The notes under the pieces: model-generated
Databases searched by the model: none
What the model saw: only the letters and a program-made list of their open reading frames with translations
Told to the model about the DNA's origin: nothing
Made by a program: the position numbers and the translations under genes
Source: Verrucomicrobiota bacterium
GTDB lineage: Bacteria > Verrucomicrobiota > Verrucomicrobiia > Chthoniobacterales > UBA10450
Assembly: GCA_003218375.1 (NCBI GenBank)
Contig: QHNH01000017.1
Location: 98,184-162,183, forward strand
DNA length: 64,000 bases
Direction: 5' to 3'
Part shown: positions 46,701 through 58,386 of the stretch, in pieces
Layout of the letters: each line of letters starts with the position of its first letter
Numbering within the stretch: the first letter of the stretch is position 1

Positions 46701-49541
46701 ATGAATGATCCCCCGAATCGCGAAGTGCTCGTGTTCAATGCGGCCTTGCAATTGCCTGCAAACGAGAGGGTCGGCTACCTGAGCGAAGCCTGTCGTTGCG
46801 ATATCGAACTGCACAGCCGCGTCGCAGCATTGCTTGTAGCGCACGAACGAGCGGGCACTTTTCTCCAGGAACCAGCCGATAGACCGCCAGCATCCTCAAT
46901 GGCGGCCGCTGCGCGACAGGCGAATCCCCGGCGGCGCCGGCTCGCGCCGGCGGGGGAAATCTCCGGCGATCACGCCGGGCGCTACAAACTACTCCAGCAA
47001 ATCGGCGAAGGCGGCTGCGGCATCGTCTATATGGCCGAACAGGAACAACCGGTCCGCCGGCGCGTGGCGCTCAAGGTCATCAAGCTCGGCATGGACACCA
47101 AACAAGTCATCGCCCGTTTCGAAGCGGAGCGGCAGGCACTGGCGCTGATGGACCATCCGAACATCGCCAAAGTGCTCGATGCCGGTGCCACCGAGACCGG
47201 CAGGTCTTACTTCGTCATGGAACTGGTGCGGGGCGTGAAGATCACCGATTTCTGCGATCAGAACGGACTTCCGACCGAAGCGCGGCTCCGATTGTTCATC
47301 CAGGTTTGTCACGCCATCCAACACGCACATCAGAAAGGCGTCATTCACCGCGACATCAAACCGACCAACATTCTAGTAACCGTGAATGACGGCGTGGCGG
47401 TCCCCAGGGTGATTGATTTCGGCATCGCAAAAGCGACGCAGGGTCGGCTCACCGATCAGACGCTCTTCACCGCGTTCGAGCAATTCATCGGCACGCCGGC
47501 TTACATGAGCCCGGAGCAAGCCGTGTTGACGAGCGTGGAAGTGGACACTCGCAGCGACATCTACAGTCTGGGCGTGCTGCTCTACGAATTGCTCACGGGC
47601 CAAACGCCTTTTGCCCAAAAGGACCTGCTCGCGTCAGGGCTGGATGAAATGCGGCGTACGATTTGCGAGAAAGATCCCGTTCGTCCTTCCACGCGGCTTA
47701 GCGCGATGGTGCCGAATGATCTGGCAACGGTGGCCTGCAATCGTCAATCCGAACCGCCACAGTTGATTCATCTGGTGCGCGGCGATTTGGACTGGATTGT
47801 CATGAAGTGTTTGCAGAAAGACCGCACCCGTCGCTATGAAACCGCGAATGCATTGGCGATCGACCTCGAACGGCACCTGAACCACCAACCGGTTCTGGCG
47901 CGCCCGGATACTCGGGCTTATCGGATTGCGAAATTTGTTCGCCGCCATCGCGCGGCCGCGACGTTTGCCGCGGTTGTTTTCATTGCTTTGATCGGCGGCT
48001 TGACCGGCACGATCACGCAGGCCCAGCGGGCGACGCGGCAGGCTGCCTTAGCGGAAAAGCAGCGTCATCGGGCTGACGAACAGGCGCGCGCGGCCAACGC
48101 GGAACGCGACTTCGCACTACGCCAGCTTTCCCGTGCCGAAGCCATCAATGACTTAAACACGTTCCTGCTCTCTGACGCCGCGCCGTCCGGCAAACCTTTT
48201 ACTGTAGGTGAACTGCTCGCGCGCGCCGAACGGATCGTTAACCGGCAATCGGGTGAGACCGACGAAAACCGAGTCGAACTCCTGATGGCGATCGGCCGCC
48301 AATATCAGGTCATGGACGAGCTTTCCAAAGCGCGCGAGTTGCTCGAGAAAGCTTACGCGCTCTCGCGCAATGTTAAGGAGCCGGCGGTTCGCGCGAAGGC
48401 CGCCGCCGCCTTGGGCGATGCACTCTCGCTAGCCGGTCAACACGAGCGTGGCGAGAGCCTTGTCACCGAAGGGCTGGCCGAATTGGGCGAGTTGCCGCAG
48501 TACGTATTGCCTCGCGTTTTTTGTCTTCTGCGCGGCAGCCATGTCGCGCGAGAGAACGGCAAATCGGGGTTGGGGCTGGAGCGCGTCATGACGGCGCAAC
48601 GACTTTTGCGGGAGTCAGCGCAGGGATCCCCACTGCTCGACCTGACGGTGGCGATGGACGTTGCCGAGTCCTATCGCTTGGCGGGGCGGCATCGCGAAGC
48701 GGCGGACGCCTTTGCAGCGGCCTTCAAACAGCTCTCCGCGCTCGGGCGCGACGACACGGATAAAGCTGCCACATTGCTGAACAATTGGGCTCTGGCAGTC
48801 GAAGTGCTCGGCCAACCACTCGAAGCCGAGCGGCTCTATCGGCGCGCGATTGCCATCGACATTGCCGAAGGAAACGAGGAAAGCGTTTCGCCGATGGTGC
48901 TCAATAATCTCGCGCGCGTCCTTGTTGAGCTGCGGCGATTCTCTGAAGCTGCCGACTACGCCGAGCGCGCATACGCCAAGGCGCAACGCGCCGGCGCGGA
49001 AAATGTGGTAAACCTTTCGCTTTACGTCCGAGGGTGCGCTTATCGGGACCTCGGCGACTTCACCCGCGCCGCGGAAATGTTTAACCAGGTCGAAGCGCGA
49101 TGGAAGCGCACGATGCCAAGCGGACACTTGGTTTTTGCCTCGCTCGCGTCACAGCGCTCACTGCTGACGCTGGCCATGGGCGATGCTCAGGCCGCGCTGG
49201 TGCAGGCGGAGCAGGCTGTCGCCCTTGCCGAAGCGAACCCGGCGGCTCACGACCACCTGAAGAGTTACCTTTTACGACGAGCCAATCTCCGGATGCAGTT
49301 GCAGAAGGTCGAAGAATCGCGAGCTGACGCGGCGCCGGTATTGGCCCTGCAACAAGCAGACGTTGGCACGAATTTTCTCTCATCTCTCATCGGTCGCGCT
49401 CATCTCGCATTGGGCCGCGCGTTGCGCGCACAAGGCAAGCTCGAAGAAGCGCGGGCGGCGTATGCGTCCGCGGTCGAACATTTGGAACCGACGCTCGGCA
49501 AGGATCATCCGGAAACGGTTGAAGCAGCGCGAGGCCCGTAG
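46701..49541 (+). CDS. Transmembrane Ser/Thr protein kinase with TPR region
   Basis: 946 aa. The N-terminal about 90 residues have the short helical segment often preceding such kinases (LSEACRCDIELHSRVAALL). The kinase domain (about 94-390) shows IGEGGCGIVY, Lys125 in VALKVI, HRDIKPTN with Asp218, DFG at 239-241 and GTPAYMSPEQ. A transmembrane helix at about 412-432 leads into a coiled-coil (KQRHRADEQARAANAERDF) and a long TPR-like helical region (about 480-940). It is followed, after a palindromic element, by a TIGR02999-type sigma factor, so the two form a regulatory pair. It lies between an exported protease and a row of exported beta-helix proteins, its likely regulon. Confidence 0.92.
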   Translation: MNDPPNREVLVFNAALQLPANERVGYLSEACRCDIELHSRVAALLVAHERAGTFLQEPADRPPASSMAAAARQANPRRRRLAPAGEISGDHAGRYKLLQQIGEGGCGIVYMAEQEQPVRRRVALKVIKLGMDTKQVIARFEAERQALALMDHPNIAKVLDAGATETGRSYFVMELVRGVKITDFCDQNGLPTEARLRLFIQVCHAIQHAHQKGVIHRDIKPTNILVTVNDGVAVPRVIDFGIAKATQGRLTDQTLFTAFEQFIGTPAYMSPEQAVLTSVEVDTRSDIYSLGVLLYELLTGQTPFAQKDLLASGLDEMRRTICEKDPVRPSTRLSAMVPNDLATVACNRQSEPPQLIHLVRGDLDWIVMKCLQKDRTRRYETANALAIDLERHLNHQPVLARPDTRAYRIAKFVRRHRAAATFAAVVFIALIGGLTGTITQAQRATRQAALAEKQRHRADEQARAANAERDFALRQLSRAEAINDLNTFLLSDAAPSGKPFTVGELLARAERIVNRQSGETDENRVELLMAIGRQYQVMDELSKARELLEKAYALSRNVKEPAVRAKAAAALGDALSLAGQHERGESLVTEGLAELGELPQYVLPRVFCLLRGSHVARENGKSGLGLERVMTAQRLLRESAQGSPLLDLTVAMDVAESYRLAGRHREAADAFAAAFKQLSALGRDDTDKAATLLNNWALAVEVLGQPLEAERLYRRAIAIDIAEGNEESVSPMVLNNLARVLVELRRFSEAADYAERAYAKAQRAGAENVVNLSLYVRGCAYRDLGDFTRAAEMFNQVEARWKRTMPSGHLVFASLASQRSLLTLAMGDAQAALVQAEQAVALAEANPAAHDHLKSYLLRRANLRMQLQKVEESRADAAPVLALQQADVGTNFLSSLIGRAHLALGRALRAQGKLEEARAAYASAVEHLEPTLGKDHPETVEAARGP

Positions 49542-49552
49542 CGGCATTTGTC

Positions 49553-49679
49553 GGAACATAGACTTGCAGTCTGTGCGCCCAGCGGGTTTGCAACCCGCTG
49601 TAACCCAACAATCCACGCCTTGAATCTCCAGCAGCGGACAACATGTCCGCTGGGCATACAGGCCAAAGGCCTATGTTCC
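49553..49679. repeat. Composite palindromic element between kinase and sigma genes
   Basis: The ends are GGAACATAG and CTATGTTCC. Inside are hairpins CAGCGGGTTTGCAACCCGCTG (as arms CAGCGGGTT/AACCCGCTG) and AGCGGACA/TGTCCGCT. CCCAGCGG and CCGCTGGG can also pair across the element. There is no ORF. It starts about 12 bases after the kinase stop. Confidence 0.8.
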
Positions 49680-49750
49680 CATCGGGCCAAACTGTCCGTG
49701 ACAATCGTTCCGATTTTTGCCACCCTACTCGCCACAAATCTCCGCGAGGC

Positions 49751-50314
49751 ATGAGTGAGGCTACCCTTCTGCTCAACGCAATTGAAAGCGGCGACGCGAA
49801 AGCCGCCGATCAAGTGTTGCCGCTGGTCTATGAAGAATTGCGCCGCCTCGCTGCGAGCAAGATGGCCAATGAAGCCGCGGGCCACACCCTGCAACCGACC
49901 GCGCTGGTCCACGAGGCCTGGCTGCGGCTCGTCGGCGACCACACCCCAAGTTTTCAGAACCGTGCGCATTTTTTTGCGGCGGCGGCCGAGGCGATGCGGC
50001 GGATTCTCATTGACCACGCCCGGCAAAAGCGCGCCGTTCGCCACGGCGGCGGCCAGCAGCGTGTGGAGTTAGAGTATGTGGAGCTGCCTTTCCCGGGCGA
50101 CGACGACCAACTCCTTGCGGTGAACGACGCGCTCGAACAGCTCGCAACTGCACATCCGCTCGAAGCCGAGGTCGTGAAGCTGCGTTATTTCGTGGGCCTA
50201 ACGCATGATGAAACCGCTGAAGCGCTCGGCATTTCCTTGCGAACGGCAAAATATTATTGGGCCCACGCCCGGGCTTGGTTGTTCAACGAAATCACGTCGG
50301 CGGAATCAAAGTGA
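49751..50314 (+). CDS. ECF-type RNA polymerase sigma factor (TIGR02999 type)
   Basis: 187 aa from ATG 49751; a longer in-frame start at 49643 lies in the palindromic element and is rejected. Region 2 includes VLPLVYEELRRLAASKM and the subgroup signature HTLQPTALVHEAWLRL. The segment FFAAAAEAMRRILIDHAR follows. Region 4 is VVKLRYFVGLTHDETAEAL with helix-turn-helix GISLRTAKYYWAHARAWL. The subgroup is typical of Planctomycetes and Verrucomicrobia and is often paired with Ser/Thr kinases, as here (46701). The first beta-helix exoprotein gene starts 220 bases downstream on the same strand. Confidence 0.9.
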   Translation: MSEATLLLNAIESGDAKAADQVLPLVYEELRRLAASKMANEAAGHTLQPTALVHEAWLRLVGDHTPSFQNRAHFFAAAAEAMRRILIDHARQKRAVRHGGGQQRVELEYVELPFPGDDDQLLAVNDALEQLATAHPLEAEVVKLRYFVGLTHDETAEALGISLRTAKYYWAHARAWLFNEITSAESK

Positions 50315-50533: not shown

Positions 50534-52780
50534 ATGAAACCAGTCCGACCCAATACCAAACTCCTCCCGCCATCAACCAAGTCCGGCAGCTGCCGGATAG
50601 TTTTCAGAGATGCGCCGAAGTCCGGCAGCCGCCGGACGCTCCTGCTTTTTTCCATTGTCGTCCTGCTCGCGGGCAGCGCGACAGCTTTCATCACCGTCAA
50701 CAGCACTGGCAACGAAAGCGATGTCGCGCCCGGCGATGGCATCTGCGGGACAGTGCTTACCGGCGGTCAAAGCAGCGGCCCATGTACATTGCGCGCCGCG
50801 ATTGAGGAAGCGAACGCGCACGCCGGCCCGGATATCATTACCTTCAACATCCCGGCCTCGGATGCCAATTGCGCGAGCGGCGTTTGCACGATCACTCTCA
50901 GCTCGAGGCTGCCGAACCTGAGTACGGACATTACGATAAACGGTCCCGGACCGGCGCTGCTTACTGTCAGGGGGACTTCCTCTCTTCTTCACCTTCGCGT
51001 TATCAGCGTCATGACTACGGGCACGGTGAACTTGTCCGGTCTCACGATCAGCAACGGCACAGCCGGAGGAGTTTCCAACCTGGGCAGCGGAACGCTGAAC
51101 GTTACCAACTGCACGATCAGCAACAACGGCAATGGAACGACGAGGGGCGCGGGCCTTTTCAACGGCGACACCGCGACCACGAATATGACTAATACCACGG
51201 TGAGCGCCAATCTTTCGGGAGATGCCGGTGGTGGCGTCTATAACGAAGGCACCGCGCTGACAATTACGGGTAGCACGATCGCTGCTAATCACGTGGTCGC
51301 CTTCAGCAGCAATACGTCACCGGGCGGCGGAGGTGTGCTTGGTCAGCGTCTCAGGATCGTCAACAGTACGATCAACGGGAACGTAAGCGACGGAACGGGC
51401 GGCGGAATCGATGGAAGCGACAATGTTATCGTCAACAGCACGATTGCCGGAAACTTTGCCGCCACAGCCGCTGGCGGCATTTTTGCCAGTTTGTCGAATC
51501 AGATCACGAACTGCACGATCACCGGGAATTCGGTCACGATGAATTTGTCTGGCGCGCTCGGCGGCGGAGTTTACTTCGCCGAGGGATTGGGCGGCCTCAC
51601 AACGATCAAGAGCACCATCATCGCGCTGAATACTACCGCAAACAAACTGACACCGGATGTGCGCTACGATAACAGTAACACGCCGTTTACCAGCGCTGGG
51701 TTCAACCTGGTCGGAAAGGACGACGGCGGCAGATTTACCGCGGCTACCGATCGGCACGGCACCGTAGCCTCGCCGCTCGATCCAAAGCTCGATCCAAATG
51801 GTTTGCAAAATAACGGCGGCCCGACCCAGACTGTCGGCCTGCTTGTTGGCAGTCCGGCAATCGACAAAGGTACGAGCATCGGTCTGACCGGCCAGCTTAC
51901 TACCGATCAGCGCGGTAGCGGCTTTCCGCGGATGGTTGATAATTCTGCAATCCAAAACGCTTCCGGCGGCGATGGCACCGACATCGGCGCCTTCGAAGTA
52001 CAAGCAATTCCCACGGTCCTCGCTAACATTTCCACCCGGCTGCCAGTGCAAACCGGTGACAACGTTCTCATTGGCGGCTTTATTGTTACAGGCACGCAGA
52101 ACAAGAAAGTAATTATTCGCGCCCTGGGGCCGTCGGTGCCGGTGCCTGGAGCGCTGGCCAATCCCACCCTGGAACTTTACAGTGGATCGACGCTGCTGGA
52201 GTCCAACGACAACTGGGTCGATTCGCCGAACAAGCAAGCGATCATCGACAGCACCATTCCGCCGAGTAACAATCTGGAGTCAGCCATTGTGCGGACGTTG
52301 CCGGCCAACAGCTCCGCTTATACGGCGATCGTGCGCGGGGTAAACACCACCACCGGTATAGCAGTGGTAGAAGCTTACGATCTGGATCGCAGTGTGGATT
52401 CAAAGTTAGCTAACATTTCGACGCGCGGCTTTGTTCAAACCGGCGACAACGTCTTAATCGCCGGTACGATCATTCTTGGGCAAACGCCGCAGAAGGTCAT
52501 CATCCGCGCAATTGGTCCTTCGTTGTCGGTGGCAGGAAAACTGGCCGATCCCACGCTTCAACTTATCGATGGCAATGGCACGGTGTTGGAAGAGAACAAC
52601 AACTGGGTCGATAGCCCGAACAAACAGGCCATTATCGACAGCACCATTCCGCCCTCGAATGATTTGGAGTCCGCGATTGTGCGGACGCTGCCAGCCAACG
52701 GCGCCCAGTACACGGCGATCGTGCGCGGCGTAAACGACAGCACCGGCATCGCGGTGGTGGAGCTGTACGCGCTGAATTAA
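50534..52780 (+). CDS. Exported CSLREA beta-helix protein with twin C-terminal domains (paralogue A)
   Basis: 748 aa from ATG 50534, which has AAGGAG seven bases upstream; the open frame extends to 50348 but without a better site. A signal peptide has its hydrophobic core at about 38-50. The CSLREA-type motif follows (ITVNSTGNESDVAPGDGICG, CTLRAAIEEANA), then right-handed beta-helix turns of NCTISNNGNGT/STINGN kind (about 150-400). A choice-of-anchor-Q-like end (LQNNGGPTQTVGLL, SPAIDKGT, DIGAFE) precedes two tandem twin-domain copies (from about 495 and 622) ending ELYALN. It is the first of three paralogues in a row on one strand. Adhesion or surface display is inferred; no enzymatic motif is seen. 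Confidence 0.88.
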   Translation: MKPVRPNTKLLPPSTKSGSCRIVFRDAPKSGSRRTLLLFSIVVLLAGSATAFITVNSTGNESDVAPGDGICGTVLTGGQSSGPCTLRAAIEEANAHAGPDIITFNIPASDANCASGVCTITLSSRLPNLSTDITINGPGPALLTVRGTSSLLHLRVISVMTTGTVNLSGLTISNGTAGGVSNLGSGTLNVTNCTISNNGNGTTRGAGLFNGDTATTNMTNTTVSANLSGDAGGGVYNEGTALTITGSTIAANHVVAFSSNTSPGGGGVLGQRLRIVNSTINGNVSDGTGGGIDGSDNVIVNSTIAGNFAATAAGGIFASLSNQITNCTITGNSVTMNLSGALGGGVYFAEGLGGLTTIKSTIIALNTTANKLTPDVRYDNSNTPFTSAGFNLVGKDDGGRFTAATDRHGTVASPLDPKLDPNGLQNNGGPTQTVGLLVGSPAIDKGTSIGLTGQLTTDQRGSGFPRMVDNSAIQNASGGDGTDIGAFEVQAIPTVLANISTRLPVQTGDNVLIGGFIVTGTQNKKVIIRALGPSVPVPGALANPTLELYSGSTLLESNDNWVDSPNKQAIIDSTIPPSNNLESAIVRTLPANSSAYTAIVRGVNTTTGIAVVEAYDLDRSVDSKLANISTRGFVQTGDNVLIAGTIILGQTPQKVIIRAIGPSLSVAGKLADPTLQLIDGNGTVLEENNNWVDSPNKQAIIDSTIPPSNDLESAIVRTLPANGAQYTAIVRGVNDSTGIAVVELYALN

Positions 52781-52929
52781 CAGTCGTGCGCCCTTTTTTA
52801 TTTTTCCTCTGCCGGCACACTGTCCGACAAACGCGGGACTTAGGTTTGCTCCTCGCGCCGCGTTTTGATCAAGAAGCAGGCCTGTGCCGATTTGAGGCCT
52901 TGAAACGGCGCCAACTATCTTGGCTGCGG

Positions 52930-55782
52930 ATGGGAGCTGCTCTGCGGTTCCACGCGGAGATTGCGCCATCAGGTCTAGCGGGAGACTCTTTTGCAAGGTG
53001 CCGCGGATTCCTGGTGCTTCTCGTAGCGCTGATGGGATTCGGCGCTTTTGCTGTCCCTGCAAAAGCGCAAATTACTTTTCTATACACCGTCAAAAATACG
53101 TCTGATACGGTCGTTGCCAATGCGTGCGCCAATGCCACAGCCGGGTGCTCGCTGCGCGGTGCGATCCAGGCTGCGAACGCGAGTGGCGCCAGCACCATAG
53201 CCTTCGCGATCCCTGCAAATGATCCGTTCTGCACCGGCGGTGTTTGCACGATCAATCTAGGGTCAGCGCTGCCCGACATTACCGTGAACACAGAGTTCGA
53301 CGGCCCCGGCGCGGACAAGCTCACGGTGCGGCGCAACGCCGGGACCGAGTTCCGCATTTTCAATGTCACGACTGCAGGGACCGTGTTTTTGTTTGGGATG
53401 ACCATCAGTAACGGTTCGGTCAGCCTCAGCATGGAGCGCGGCGGCGGTGTTCAGAATGCGAGCACCGGCACGGTGAGCATCACTAACTGTGTGCTCAGCG
53501 GTAACTTTGCTTTCTTCGGTGGCGGCATAGAGAATGCGAGCAGCGGCACGATGAGCATCACTAACTGTGTGCTCAGCGGTAACGTTGCTTTCAAAGGCGG
53601 CGGCATAGATAACACTGGCGGGGGAACTGTGAACTCCGGCACAATGAATGTCGCCCACACGACCCTGACGGGTAACTCCGCTCCTTCCGCCGGCGGCATT
53701 TACAACAGTGGCATACTCAATGTCACCGACAGCACGCTGACGGGTAACTCTGCTAGCGCCGGCGATGGCGGGGGTATTTCCAACTTCAGCAACGGCCCCA
53801 TAACCGGCACGGCGAATATTACGAACTGCACGCTCAGCAATAACTCTGCTACCGCCGCGGGCGGCGGCATTTCGAATGCCAGCGCTGGCAGAGTAAACGT
53901 GACCAACAGCACGCTTTCCGGCAACTCTGTCCTTGGGCCTGTTGCCAGCTTTGGAAATGGACAGGAAGCTGACGGTGGCGGCATTGCCACTGGCAATGGC
54001 GATACCGTGACCATCACGAACTGCACGTTCGCGGGCAACTCGGCTGTGGGTGGTACAGGTGCAAGCAACAGCCAGGGCGGCAACGGCGAGGGTGGGGGAA
54101 TTTACAGCGACGGCGCAACCGTAACCATCATCAACAGCACCTTCTTGGGTAACTCGGCTACTGGTGGAGCTGGTGGTCCCTCCTCCGGTGCCGGGGGTGC
54201 GGGCGAGGGTGGTGGAATTCGTAATAAGACCGGCACTATTAGTATCAGCAATAGTACCTTCTCGGGCAATTCGGTTACCGGTGGCGTTACCGCTCCTTCC
54301 GGATTTGGACCCGGTGTGGGCGGCGGTATTAACAGCTCCGGCGTCACTCAGCTTAAGAGCACCATTATCGCCAGAAGCACGGCCAGCGCTTCTGGACCGG
54401 ATGTTAATGGCTCTTTTACTTCACAAGGCTTTAACCTGATCGGTAAGAACGACGGCGCGGCCGCGAGTTTTCCTACCGGAAACCCAAATGGGAGCGGCGA
54501 TATCGTCGGAACCGCCGCTTCTCCGATTGATCCCAAGTTCGATCCAGCCGGTTTGCAAAATAATGGCGGCCCGACTTCGACGACCGCGCTTCTTTTTGGC
54601 AGCCCGGCCATCGACAAAGGCATTAATACCGTCCTGGCCACCGTCACTAGCGCTATTAATAACTCGACGACAGCAATCAACGTTAATAACGCCAGCAATA
54701 TTCCTGCCGGAGCCGGCTATACGATCCTCATTGATAGCGAGCAGATGGTCGTGACCAGCAAAGCCGGCAATTCCTTGACCGTTACGCGCGGCGCGAACAG
54801 CACGATGGCGGCCTCTCATTCCACAGGAGCGAGTTTGTATCCGGCCTTTGATCAGCGCGGCACAGGCTTCCCGCGCACTTTTAACGATCCGGCGATTCCA
54901 AACGCGAACGGTGGCGACAACACAGACATTGGCGCCTTCGAAGTGCAAGTTGTAGCTCCTCCTCCCACACCTACCCCCACGCCGACACCAACAGCAACAC
55001 CTACGGCTACTCCTACCACCTTGGCTAATATTTCCACCCGGCTACCAGTGCAAACCGGTGACAACGTTCTCATTGGGGGCTTCATCGTGACCGGGACGCA
55101 GGACAAGAAAGTAATTATTCGCGCCTTGGGGCCGTCGGTGCCGGTGCCCGGAGCGCTGGCCAATCCCACGCTGGAACTTTACAGTGGATCGACGCTGCTG
55201 GAGTCCAACGACAACTGGGTCGATAGCCCGAACAAGCAAGCGATCATCGATAGCACCATTCCGCCACCGAACAATCTGGAGTCAGCCATTGTGCGGACGT
55301 TGCCGGCCAACAGCTCCGCTTATACGGCGATCGTGCGCGGGGTAAACAACACCACCGGCATAGCAGTGGTAGAAGCATACGACTTGGATAGAACGGTTAA
55401 CTCGAAGCTGGCGAACATCTCCACCCGCGGGTTAGTGCAGACCGGTGACAACGTCCTGATAGCTGGAACTATTATTCTGGGTCAAGCATCGCAGAAAGTA
55501 ATCATCCGCGCGATAGGACCGTCCCTGTCGGTGCCCGGAAAGCTGGCCGATCCGACGCTGGAGTTGCGCGATCAAAACGGCGGTCTCCTCGAGGCCAATG
55601 ATAACTGGGTGGACAGCCCGAACAAGCAAGCGATTATCGACAGCACGATCCCGCCCAGTAACAACCTGGAGTCTGCGATTGTGCGGACGTTGCCGGCGAA
55701 CGGCGCGAGCTACACCGCGATCTTACGCGGCGTGAACAACACGACCGGCATCGCCGTCGTCGAAATTTACGCGCTCCAATAG
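52930..55782 (+). CDS. Exported CSLREA beta-helix protein with twin C-terminal domains (paralogue B)
   Basis: 950 aa from ATG 52930; an in-frame GTG at 52786 would add 48 residues without improving the signal peptide (core GFLVLLVALMGFGAFAV). The CSLREA-like motif is shortened (TAGCSLRGAIQAANAS). Many beta-helix turns follow (ITNCVLSGN, VTNSTLSGN), including a 78-base direct DNA duplication near 53455-53610. A short extra domain (INNSTTAINVNNASNIPAG, QMVVTSKAGNSLTVTRG) sits before DIGAFE. A Pro-Thr linker (about 676-696) and two twin-domain copies end EIYALQ. Copy 1 is nearly identical at DNA level to that of paralogue A. It starts 149 bases after paralogue A. Confidence 0.87.
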   Translation: MGAALRFHAEIAPSGLAGDSFARCRGFLVLLVALMGFGAFAVPAKAQITFLYTVKNTSDTVVANACANATAGCSLRGAIQAANASGASTIAFAIPANDPFCTGGVCTINLGSALPDITVNTEFDGPGADKLTVRRNAGTEFRIFNVTTAGTVFLFGMTISNGSVSLSMERGGGVQNASTGTVSITNCVLSGNFAFFGGGIENASSGTMSITNCVLSGNVAFKGGGIDNTGGGTVNSGTMNVAHTTLTGNSAPSAGGIYNSGILNVTDSTLTGNSASAGDGGGISNFSNGPITGTANITNCTLSNNSATAAGGGISNASAGRVNVTNSTLSGNSVLGPVASFGNGQEADGGGIATGNGDTVTITNCTFAGNSAVGGTGASNSQGGNGEGGGIYSDGATVTIINSTFLGNSATGGAGGPSSGAGGAGEGGGIRNKTGTISISNSTFSGNSVTGGVTAPSGFGPGVGGGINSSGVTQLKSTIIARSTASASGPDVNGSFTSQGFNLIGKNDGAAASFPTGNPNGSGDIVGTAASPIDPKFDPAGLQNNGGPTSTTALLFGSPAIDKGINTVLATVTSAINNSTTAINVNNASNIPAGAGYTILIDSEQMVVTSKAGNSLTVTRGANSTMAASHSTGASLYPAFDQRGTGFPRTFNDPAIPNANGGDNTDIGAFEVQVVAPPPTPTPTPTPTATPTATPTTLANISTRLPVQTGDNVLIGGFIVTGTQDKKVIIRALGPSVPVPGALANPTLELYSGSTLLESNDNWVDSPNKQAIIDSTIPPPNNLESAIVRTLPANSSAYTAIVRGVNNTTGIAVVEAYDLDRTVNSKLANISTRGLVQTGDNVLIAGTIILGQASQKVIIRAIGPSLSVPGKLADPTLELRDQNGGLLEANDNWVDSPNKQAIIDSTIPPSNNLESAIVRTLPANGASYTAILRGVNNTTGIAVVEIYALQ

Positions 55783-55896
55783 GGACAAATCGCTCCCCAG
55801 ACCTCGATCCCTTGGGAGTGAGTTCCCGCCTTCATTCCGACCCCGAAAACATTCGGGGTTGCTTGCACTTTCCGGTCCGGAATCTCGCATTAGCTC

Positions 55897-58386
55897 ATGA
55901 TGAAGAGATCCCGACCGAAATCCGAACTCGCGCCATCAACTCAACCAGGAAAAACAGTTTTCCGAGATGCGCCGCAATCCCGCAGTCGCGGGACACTCTT
56001 CTTGTTTTTCGTTGCCGTGCCCCTGATCGGATTCTGGCTCGCCGTTTCCGCGCCGGCTGCGACCTTCACCGTCAACAGCACGGGCGACGAAAGCGATCCT
56101 GTGCCGAGCGATGGCGTCTGCGGCACGGTGGCAATCGACAAAACTCATTCCGGCGGGCCGTGCACGCTACGGGCCGCGATCGAGTCGGCGAATGCGAATG
56201 CGAATACGGACACGATCCAATTCAATCTTCCCGCCGGCTCGGTAATCAACCTGACCCAGGTCCTGCCTGACTTGAGCACCAACATGTCGATCACCGGCCC
56301 CGGCGCGAGCGTGCTGACTGTAAGGCGGGATACCGGCGGCAGTTACCGAGTCTTTCATGTGACAACCGCAGGGTTTGTTACTTTCTCCGGCATCACGATT
56401 AGCAATGGGCTCGGCGGCATCATTAACGACAACGCCGCCACCCTCACCGTTACCGGTTGCATAATCAGCGGCAATTCCACTACGAGCGGGCTTGGCGGCG
56501 CCATTTTCAACAATAGCACCGGCCCAGTGAATGTGACTGACAGCACGATGAGCGGTAACTCTGCTGGCAGAGGCGGCGCCATTTTCAACAACAGCACTGC
56601 CACGGTGACTGTCACCAACAGCACGCTCTCTAATAACCTTTCCAATGGAAGCAGCACCGTCGGTGGCGGCGGCATTTACAACAACAGCACCGGCACGCTA
56701 AACGTAACCAATAGCACTCTCTCCTCAAATCGTGCTACCGCTTCGGGTGCTAATAGTGCGAGTGGCGGCGGCATTTTCAACGCCAGCGGCACCGTGAACG
56801 TCACCAACTGCAAGATCGAAGGTAATGCGGCCAACTGTCCTAATGGCAACGCGAGTGGTGGCGGCATTTACAACGAAAGCGGCACAGTGAACGTCGCCAA
56901 CAGCGCCTTCCACTTTAACGATTGCGGTCCTGTTTCCGGTGCGAATTTTTTCGTTGCCGCCAGTGGCGGTGGCATTTTCAGCGCAAGCGGCACCCTGAAC
57001 GTCGCTAATACGACACTTAGCGCTAACTTCGCTTTCGCCATTAGTTCTGGGACCGCACGCGGTGCCGGCATTTTCATCAACACCGGCACAGTGAACCTCA
57101 CCAATAGCACGCTCAGCGATAACTCTTGTAGCGGGCACCCATCCTCCATGACGTTTGGCGGCGGCATCTTCAACGCGACTGGCGGCGTCACGGTCAAGAG
57201 CTCGATCATCGCCTTAAGCAGGGTAGTCGCGGATGACGGGACCGTGGGATCAAACCCGGATGCTTCTGGTTCGTTCACTTCGCAGGGTTTCAACCTGATT
57301 GGCAAGAGAGACGGCAGCACCGGCTTCACCCAGTCTACCGATCAGACCGGAACAGTGGCCTCACCACTTGATCCGAAACTCGACCCGGCAGGATTCCGGG
57401 ACAACGGTGGCCCTACTGGAACCGTCGCCCTTCTTCCCGGCAGCCCGGCAATCGATAAAGGCACCAGCCATTGCTCGACTTGTGGTTTGACCGGAGTCCT
57501 GACGACCGACCAGCGGGATGTCGGTTTTCCGCGCACCTTCGATGACCCCGCGACGCTGAATGCGTCCGGGGGCGATGGGACGGACATCGGCGCCTTCGAA
57601 GTGCAGACCAGCCTGGTGACCAGGCTCGCCAACATCTCGACTCGTCTGCCGGTACAGACCGGCGACAACGTCCTCATCGGAGGCTTTATTATCACCGGGA
57701 CGCAGCCGAAGAAGGTGATTCTGCGCGCGATCGGTCCATCCTTGCCCTTCGCAAATAAACTGGCGAATCCGACGCTGGAGTTATTTGGCCCGTCAGGCCG
57801 GATCGATTCGAACGATAACTGGGTCGATTCACCTAACAAGCAGGCGATCATCGATTCCACAATTCCGCCTTCAAACGATTTGGAGTCAGCGATTGTAGCG
57901 ACTCTTCCGGCGAACAACGCCGGCTACACGGCCATTGTCCGCGGGGTGAATGGTGGAACTGGCATTGGCGTGGTCGAAGCCTACGACCTGGATCAATCGG
58001 TCGATTCGAAGCTGGCAAACATTTCCACGCGCGGCTTTGTCCAGACCGGCGACAACATTCTCATCGCCGGCACCATAATTTTGGGACCGAACGTCCAGAA
58101 GGTGCTCGTGCGTGGGATCGGTCCTTCCTTGCAAATCTCAGGTAAGATGGGCGATCCGGCTCTGGAATTGCGCGATCAGAACGGCGACATCCTGCAAGCC
58201 AACGACAACTGGATCGATAGCCCGGATAAACAAGCCATCATCGACACCACAATTCCGCCGACGAACGATTTCGAGTCTGCCATCATCGCGACGTTACCCG
58301 CCAACGGCGCCAGCTACACCGCCATCCTGCGCGGAGTGAACAACACGACCGGCATCGCGGTCGTGGAAATCTACGCGCTCAATTAA
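55897..58386 (+). CDS. Exported CSLREA beta-helix protein with twin C-terminal domains (paralogue C)
   Basis: 829 aa. ATG 55897 or the adjacent ATG 55900 starts a signal peptide with core LFLFFVAVPLIGFWLAVS. The CSLREA motif is complete (FTVNSTGDESDPVPSDG, CTLRAAIESANANAN). Beta-helix turns rich in NNSTG and VTNSTLS follow (about 140-440), then the anchor-Q-like end (FRDNGGPTGTVALL, AIDKGT, DIGAFEVQ) and two twin-domain copies from about 575 and 703, ending EIYALN. Upstream DNA (GGAATCTCGCATT and ATGATGAA) matches that of paralogue A, showing the promoter region was duplicated with the gene. The stop overlaps that of the convergent regulator gene. Confidence 0.88.
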   Translation: MMKRSRPKSELAPSTQPGKTVFRDAPQSRSRGTLFLFFVAVPLIGFWLAVSAPAATFTVNSTGDESDPVPSDGVCGTVAIDKTHSGGPCTLRAAIESANANANTDTIQFNLPAGSVINLTQVLPDLSTNMSITGPGASVLTVRRDTGGSYRVFHVTTAGFVTFSGITISNGLGGIINDNAATLTVTGCIISGNSTTSGLGGAIFNNSTGPVNVTDSTMSGNSAGRGGAIFNNSTATVTVTNSTLSNNLSNGSSTVGGGGIYNNSTGTLNVTNSTLSSNRATASGANSASGGGIFNASGTVNVTNCKIEGNAANCPNGNASGGGIYNESGTVNVANSAFHFNDCGPVSGANFFVAASGGGIFSASGTLNVANTTLSANFAFAISSGTARGAGIFINTGTVNLTNSTLSDNSCSGHPSSMTFGGGIFNATGGVTVKSSIIALSRVVADDGTVGSNPDASGSFTSQGFNLIGKRDGSTGFTQSTDQTGTVASPLDPKLDPAGFRDNGGPTGTVALLPGSPAIDKGTSHCSTCGLTGVLTTDQRDVGFPRTFDDPATLNASGGDGTDIGAFEVQTSLVTRLANISTRLPVQTGDNVLIGGFIITGTQPKKVILRAIGPSLPFANKLANPTLELFGPSGRIDSNDNWVDSPNKQAIIDSTIPPSNDLESAIVATLPANNAGYTAIVRGVNGGTGIGVVEAYDLDQSVDSKLANISTRGFVQTGDNILIAGTIILGPNVQKVLVRGIGPSLQISGKMGDPALELRDQNGDILQANDNWIDSPDKQAIIDTTIPPTNDFESAIIATLPANGASYTAILRGVNNTTGIAVVEIYALN

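Follow-up and report, generated by a model that had tools for sequence, protein, structure and literature searches.

A dispersed, tagless 16-base palindrome as the probable source of matching hairpins in two paralogous signal-peptide regions of a Verrucomicrobia genome

The window analyzed in this work, i.e., the whole 64,000-nucleotide stretch of contig QHNH01000017.1 of a Verrucomicrobiota bacterium, carries three adjacent genes (A, B, and C) for secreted proteins with choice-of-anchor Q domains (Table 1). The NF041518 model of this domain scored above its NCBIfam cut-off in all three genes (60.8 versus the cut-off of 25 in the case of gene A), while the CSLREA model TIGR04214 scored 33.8 in gene C and 24.5, just below the cut-off of 25, in gene A. 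Genes A and C are far diverged, with saturated synonymous divergence (dS about 1.6) and dN of about 0.34. Upstream of gene A, genes for a TPR-repeat serine/threonine kinase (46701-49541) and for a Sig-70_X6-type ECF sigma factor (49643-50314) were found, which possibly constitute a regulatory pair for the secreted proteins.

Table 1. Genes and palindromes distinguished in the analyzed part of the window.
Feature	Position	Strand	Description
Gene A	50534..52780	+	Beta-helix protein, secreted, with a choice-of-anchor Q domain and, at borderline score, an N-terminal CSLREA domain
Gene B	52786..55782	+	Paralogue located between A and C
Gene C	55897..58386	+	Paralogue of A with both domains (CSLREA, choice-of-anchor Q)
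Palindrome copy 1 in A, TCCGGCAGCTGCCGGA	50582..50597		Perfect 16-base palindrome (TCCGGC, AGCT, GCCGGA); codons S17-R21
Palindrome copy 2 in A, TCCGGCAGCCGCCGGA	50621..50636	+	6-bp stem TCCGGC/GCCGGA, loop AGCC; codons S30-R34
Palindrome in C, TCCCGCAGTCGCGGGA	55978..55993	+	6-bp stem TCCCGC/GCGGGA, loop AGTC; site of A copy 2

The original prediction, made from the letters of this stretch, had placed three palindromes within the signal-peptide codons of genes A and C, and all three are present exactly where it had put them. The signal-peptide assignment also held, with the correction that the palindromes lie in the long, positively charged n-region just before the hydrophobic core and not in the core itself. 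As the ATG of gene A follows AAGGAG, both A copies are located within the translated n-region. The palindrome of gene C, as had been proposed, occupies the same codons as the second copy of gene A; in the alignment, 13 of the 16 palindrome bases are identical, and the differences are the one stem pair switched from G-C to C-G and a single loop base. The codons TCC GGC AGC CGC CGG of gene A correspond to TCC CGC AGT CGC GGG of gene C (SGSRR versus SRSRG), i.e., the reported replacements of Gly by Arg and of Arg by Gly were read correctly. At the first A copy, about 10 bases are replaced relative to gene C, with a net gain of 6. None of the three palindromes has a stop codon in any of the six frames.

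Two further features of these leaders were observed. Gene C carries another perfect hairpin, GGAAAAACAGTTTTCC (55948-55963, 6-bp stem and 4-base loop), near the place of the first A copy. The two palindromes of gene A (50581-50637), in turn, are nearly complementary to each other (17-base arms with 23 bases between them) and are able to pair into one long hairpin, predicted at -36.6 kcal/mol over a 101-nt stretch.

Gene B has no such palindrome in its 5' region. It was rejected as a homologue with a broken stem, since this region gave no significant alignment to genes A and C (p of 0.08 for the best local match). Other homologues of the N-terminal region of A and C were found neither in the genus nor among 213 genomes of the order, and the search for compensatory changes in homologous signal-peptide regions, suggested together with the original prediction, thus yielded none beyond A and C. 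The comparison covers two sequences with one compensatory pair. The local folds of all three hairpins are better than those of shuffled sequences (z from -2.7 to -3.4), the entire C leader has an unremarkable fold (z of -1.1), and hairpins are generally abundant in these genomes, with 7-8 bp stems reaching several times the expectation. In simulations with three random substitutions in the 16-mer, 2.1% kept the stem intact; as the A/C pair was chosen after the fact, this counts as weak evidence. Hence, the above-chance case drawn from genes A and C alone is weak, and it is the genome-wide counts that carry the real signal.

These counts are strand matches, with a self-complementary copy scored on both strands and the reversed pattern serving as the control; the relatives are represented mostly by fragmentary draft genomes. 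Among 83 genomes of the family, the A-form TCCGGCAGCNGCCGGA was found in 53 (368 strand matches, 172 forward and 196 reverse, versus one for the control) and the C-form TCCCGCAGNNGCGGGA in 69 (498 strand matches, 238 and 260, versus two), the exact 16-mer of gene C being a common form of the C-type repeat across the family. The broken-pair intermediate TCCGGCAGNNGCGGGA, the pattern of which allows the same loop freedom as that of the C-form, gave only 30 matches (seven for the control), and the loop preference was absent. As both intact forms are common and the intermediate is rare, the swap that distinguishes A from C exists family-wide with hardly any intermediate. In the window's genome, the exact A-form occupies six sites, two of them in gene A (none for the reversed control), and among the relatives from 0 to 33 or more A-form sites per genome were noted. 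It should be stressed that the enrichment in the window's genome is far greater for exact copies than for one-mismatch ones, and that near-matches reach only about twice the control; such an excess suits recent copying followed by decay. A genome count of the palindrome had been proposed at the outset, and these are the values that it returned. An exact 18-mer search of the genomes of all species gave many phyla among the matches listed and was uninformative on function. The contig of one relative matches a Verrucomicrobia soil assembly around the palindrome (loci L061 and L118), which places the family within that phylum.

The conserved unit is the 16-base palindrome alone, with the family consensus (R)TCC-S-GC-N4-GC-S-GGA(Y). 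At 107 distinct sites the flanks hold almost no information outside the 16-mer, save a purine at position -1, i.e., before each arm, and the -1 and +1 bases do not lengthen the stem, forming Watson-Crick pairs at 37 of these sites versus 43 expected. The GTAG tag was found within 3 nt at 7 of the 107 sites (about 3 by chance), CGTC on 2 of 214 arms, and neither can be regarded as a tag of this palindrome. The flank GAGATGCGCCG has exact matches, genome-wide, at the A and C sites only, and it is therefore a trace of gene homology and not a part of the repeat. GATGCGCCG, which had been put forward as a flank belonging to the repeat, was ruled out as its component and lies outside it: the genome search found it exactly at two window sites only.

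Copies of the palindrome occur in either orientation, some of them in spacers or as the apex of larger REP-like hairpins, others in frame within conserved genes. ORFs of at least 200 aa, some of which will be spurious, contain about half of the sites, and seven in-frame copies are located inside Pfam domains (ABC_tran, NIF3, APH, PALP, Proton_antipo_M, Epimerase, and Lactamase_B_2). A larger repeat, TCATCCCGAG-tip-CGAGGGATCC, holds 11 of 105 distinct sites at its tip, and both A-form and C-form tips were found in it (TCATCCCGAG...CGAGGGA). In genome G001 (loci L318-L337), this REP-like repeat (TCATCCCGAG-tip-GAGGGAYCY) combines an invariant outer frame with a variety of exchangeable tips, i.e., CGCAGTC, CGAAGTC, CCGCGCAGACGGC, GCTGGCGAAGCGCGCC, and TCCGGCAGCNGCCGGATC. 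The TCATCCCGAG-tip repeat has 77 copies in the 400 kb sampled of G001, whereas 460 kb sampled from the window's genome contain 3.

Orthologous genes with filled and empty sites were distinguished for two enzymes. Within one genus, the gene for threonine synthase carries the exact palindrome in genomes G055 and G062, one with a single changed base in G049, and an altered form in G080; 19 other copies have the native sequence and no palindrome. The 16 bases substitute there for about 10 native ones (net +6). In the epimerase gene, the palindrome replaces about 7 native bases (net +9), and one and the same site is occupied by different stems, i.e., TCCGGCAGCTGCCGGA with the TCCGGC stem in G055 and G078 and TCCCGCGGACGCGGGA with the TCCCGC stem in G052. 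Decayed forms are present at this site in G065 and G051, and the palindrome is absent in 24 others. In the epimerase of G056 (L403), the place of the palindrome is taken by another insert, GTTGTAGCCGTTGATAG, which falls into the same length class. As the carriers are scattered across the (single-gene) epimerase tree, recurrent gain at one site is likelier than repeated exact loss. Altogether, the palindrome is broken in four of the nine carriers of these two genes. Genes A and C have the same anatomy, with a net gain of 6 at the first copy and one site with two stems at the second. Target duplications were not seen, and insertion is therefore read only from differences in length and sequence.

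Y1 transposases are the usual engine for REPs, and they are encoded in 80 of the 83 family genomes. At 50 Y1 loci examined (a subset of the Y1 loci), there was no A-form and one distant copy of the C-form, so that the association expected of a REP with its RAYT/Y1 gene was not seen there; the loci are bordered by other hairpins or by none. IS200-like Y1 genes of the family (L228-L257) have subterminal hairpins in pairs on their flanks, and three stem types recur among these hairpins, i.e., CCCAGCGC, CCTGGGGC, and CACCGGCC.

We consider it probable (roughly 0.7) that the hairpins of genes A and C are copies of a dispersed, REP-like but tagless micro-palindrome family that overwrites tolerant codons. 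Copies of the palindrome, presumably mobile or templated, would have reached spacers, reading frames, and the apices of larger REP-like hairpins across the genomes of this Verrucomicrobia family. Inside genes, the 16 bases of the palindrome would overwrite 7-10 native bases, and copies that keep the frame would survive in length-tolerant segments, one of which may be the signal-peptide n-region of A and C; elsewhere, judging from how the length varies there in the alignments, such segments are probably variable loops. The stem swap between A and C may then reflect two stem forms of the family at one site, reached by re-insertion, by overwriting, or because a single ancestral copy diverged, and neutral tolerance rather than function presumably explains why the copies are there. 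As native bases are replaced and target duplications are not seen, a patch-like event with single strands or hairpin tips may be suspected, for which short-patch illegitimate recombination is a candidate. In-frame insertion of a palindromic repeat family, one of the two options left by the original prediction, is thus well supported by the dispersal, the in-frame copies, and the filled and empty orthologous sites.

The other option, that a DNA or mRNA structure is selected in A and C (e.g., for early control of translation or export) and that the G-C to C-G switch is truly compensatory, appears quite improbable. A stem kept although synonymous sites are saturated, the 2.1% obtained in the simulations, the z-scores of the three local folds, and the hairpin nearby in gene C would all agree with it, and the last of these, which has to be treated as chance under the dispersed-repeat reading, counts against that reading. 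Nevertheless, the same sequences occur in either orientation in many unrelated genes and between genes, in orthologues of other genes the palindrome is often broken, the complete C leader folds in an ordinary way, and no homologues of the region beyond A and C were found in the 213 genomes of the order. As matching palindromes are dispersed genome-wide, selection on the RNA fold is not needed as an explanation. A palindrome older than the split of A and C, the stem of which was changed in C by structure-templated mutation (with one arm serving as the replication template for the other) without any selection, is a possible though less probable scenario. Templated correction of near-palindromes occurs in bacterial replication, the position and flanks of the two copies are shared together with 13 of the 16 bases, and the scarcity of the broken intermediate would fit fast correction; however, decayed copies in other genes stay uncorrected, and with the C-form itself dispersed over 69 of the 83 genomes a local event is unneeded.

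The perfect two-fold symmetry, the sharp unit with its purine at -1, and exact copies far above chance could also mark a site of DNA-protein binding (a symmetric operator or a nucleoid or segregation site) kept by selection in the manner of uptake or segregation motifs. We regard this as unlikely, given a copy number that varies so widely among the relatives, at least two stem forms, decayed copies in genes, and near-matches that do not resemble a gradual build-up of a motif. Least probable of all seems a GTAG-type REP mobilised by a RAYT (Y1) transposase, despite the almost universal presence of Y1 genes in the family and the intragenic GTAG/CGTC REP elements reported, among others, in Opitutus terrae, which also belongs to Verrucomicrobia (Di Nocera et al. 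2013, PMC3733652): the GTAG tag is close to chance, and the hairpins at the examined Y1 loci, where there are any, are of the three other stem types. As it shows neither the tag nor, at the loci examined, a linked Y1 transposase, the micro-palindrome was not classed as a GTAG REP.

Returning to the dispersed micro-palindrome family, it might tentatively be viewed as a new, minimal class of mobile DNA, although we hold this to be rather doubtful. It would be a palindrome of 16 bases that, lacking a tag and a transposase and leaving no target duplication, spreads by replacement of short native stretches (perhaps by way of single-stranded hairpin fragments or of tip exchange between hairpins), returns repeatedly to the same codons across species, and keeps its symmetry while the stem changes. 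An apparently compensatory intragenic hairpin can derive from a dispersed palindrome family and not from RNA selection, which is a trap for covariation-based searches. Moreover, in a soil bacterial family with good sampling, the orthologous sites with and without the palindrome allow the spread of tiny palindromes to be tested directly, and they are examples of a repeat adding a few residues to proteins.

Among the known systems, the micro-palindrome may be regarded as an analogue of intragenic REPs and of the Rickettsia palindromic elements (RPEs). Like the GTAG/CGTC REPs (PMC3733652), it is a short hairpin repeat dispersed in many copies, with both stem forms widespread; those elements have 6-9 bp stems, with several stem families in one phylum, and their copies also lie within ORFs, at times two per gene. 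It differs from them in the lack of a GTAG/CGTC tag, in a unit of only 16 bases, in low copy number, in the lack of an associated Y1 transposase among the loci examined, and in the replacement, rather than plain interruption, of native bases. With RPEs it shares the location of a palindromic repeat in frame inside functional protein genes (here seven Pfam domains and the filled and empty orthologues), tolerated across many unrelated proteins; the RPEs exceed it in length, as 20 or more residues are encoded by many of their single or grouped repeats, whereas the palindrome of the window contributes 5-6. Hairpin-forming elements of sponge mitochondria (PMC2800124) and palindromic repeats of Volvox (PMC2670323) are likewise selfish-looking, invade repeatedly, and differ between relatives, but both reside in organelle genomes, and the sponge elements are intergenic.
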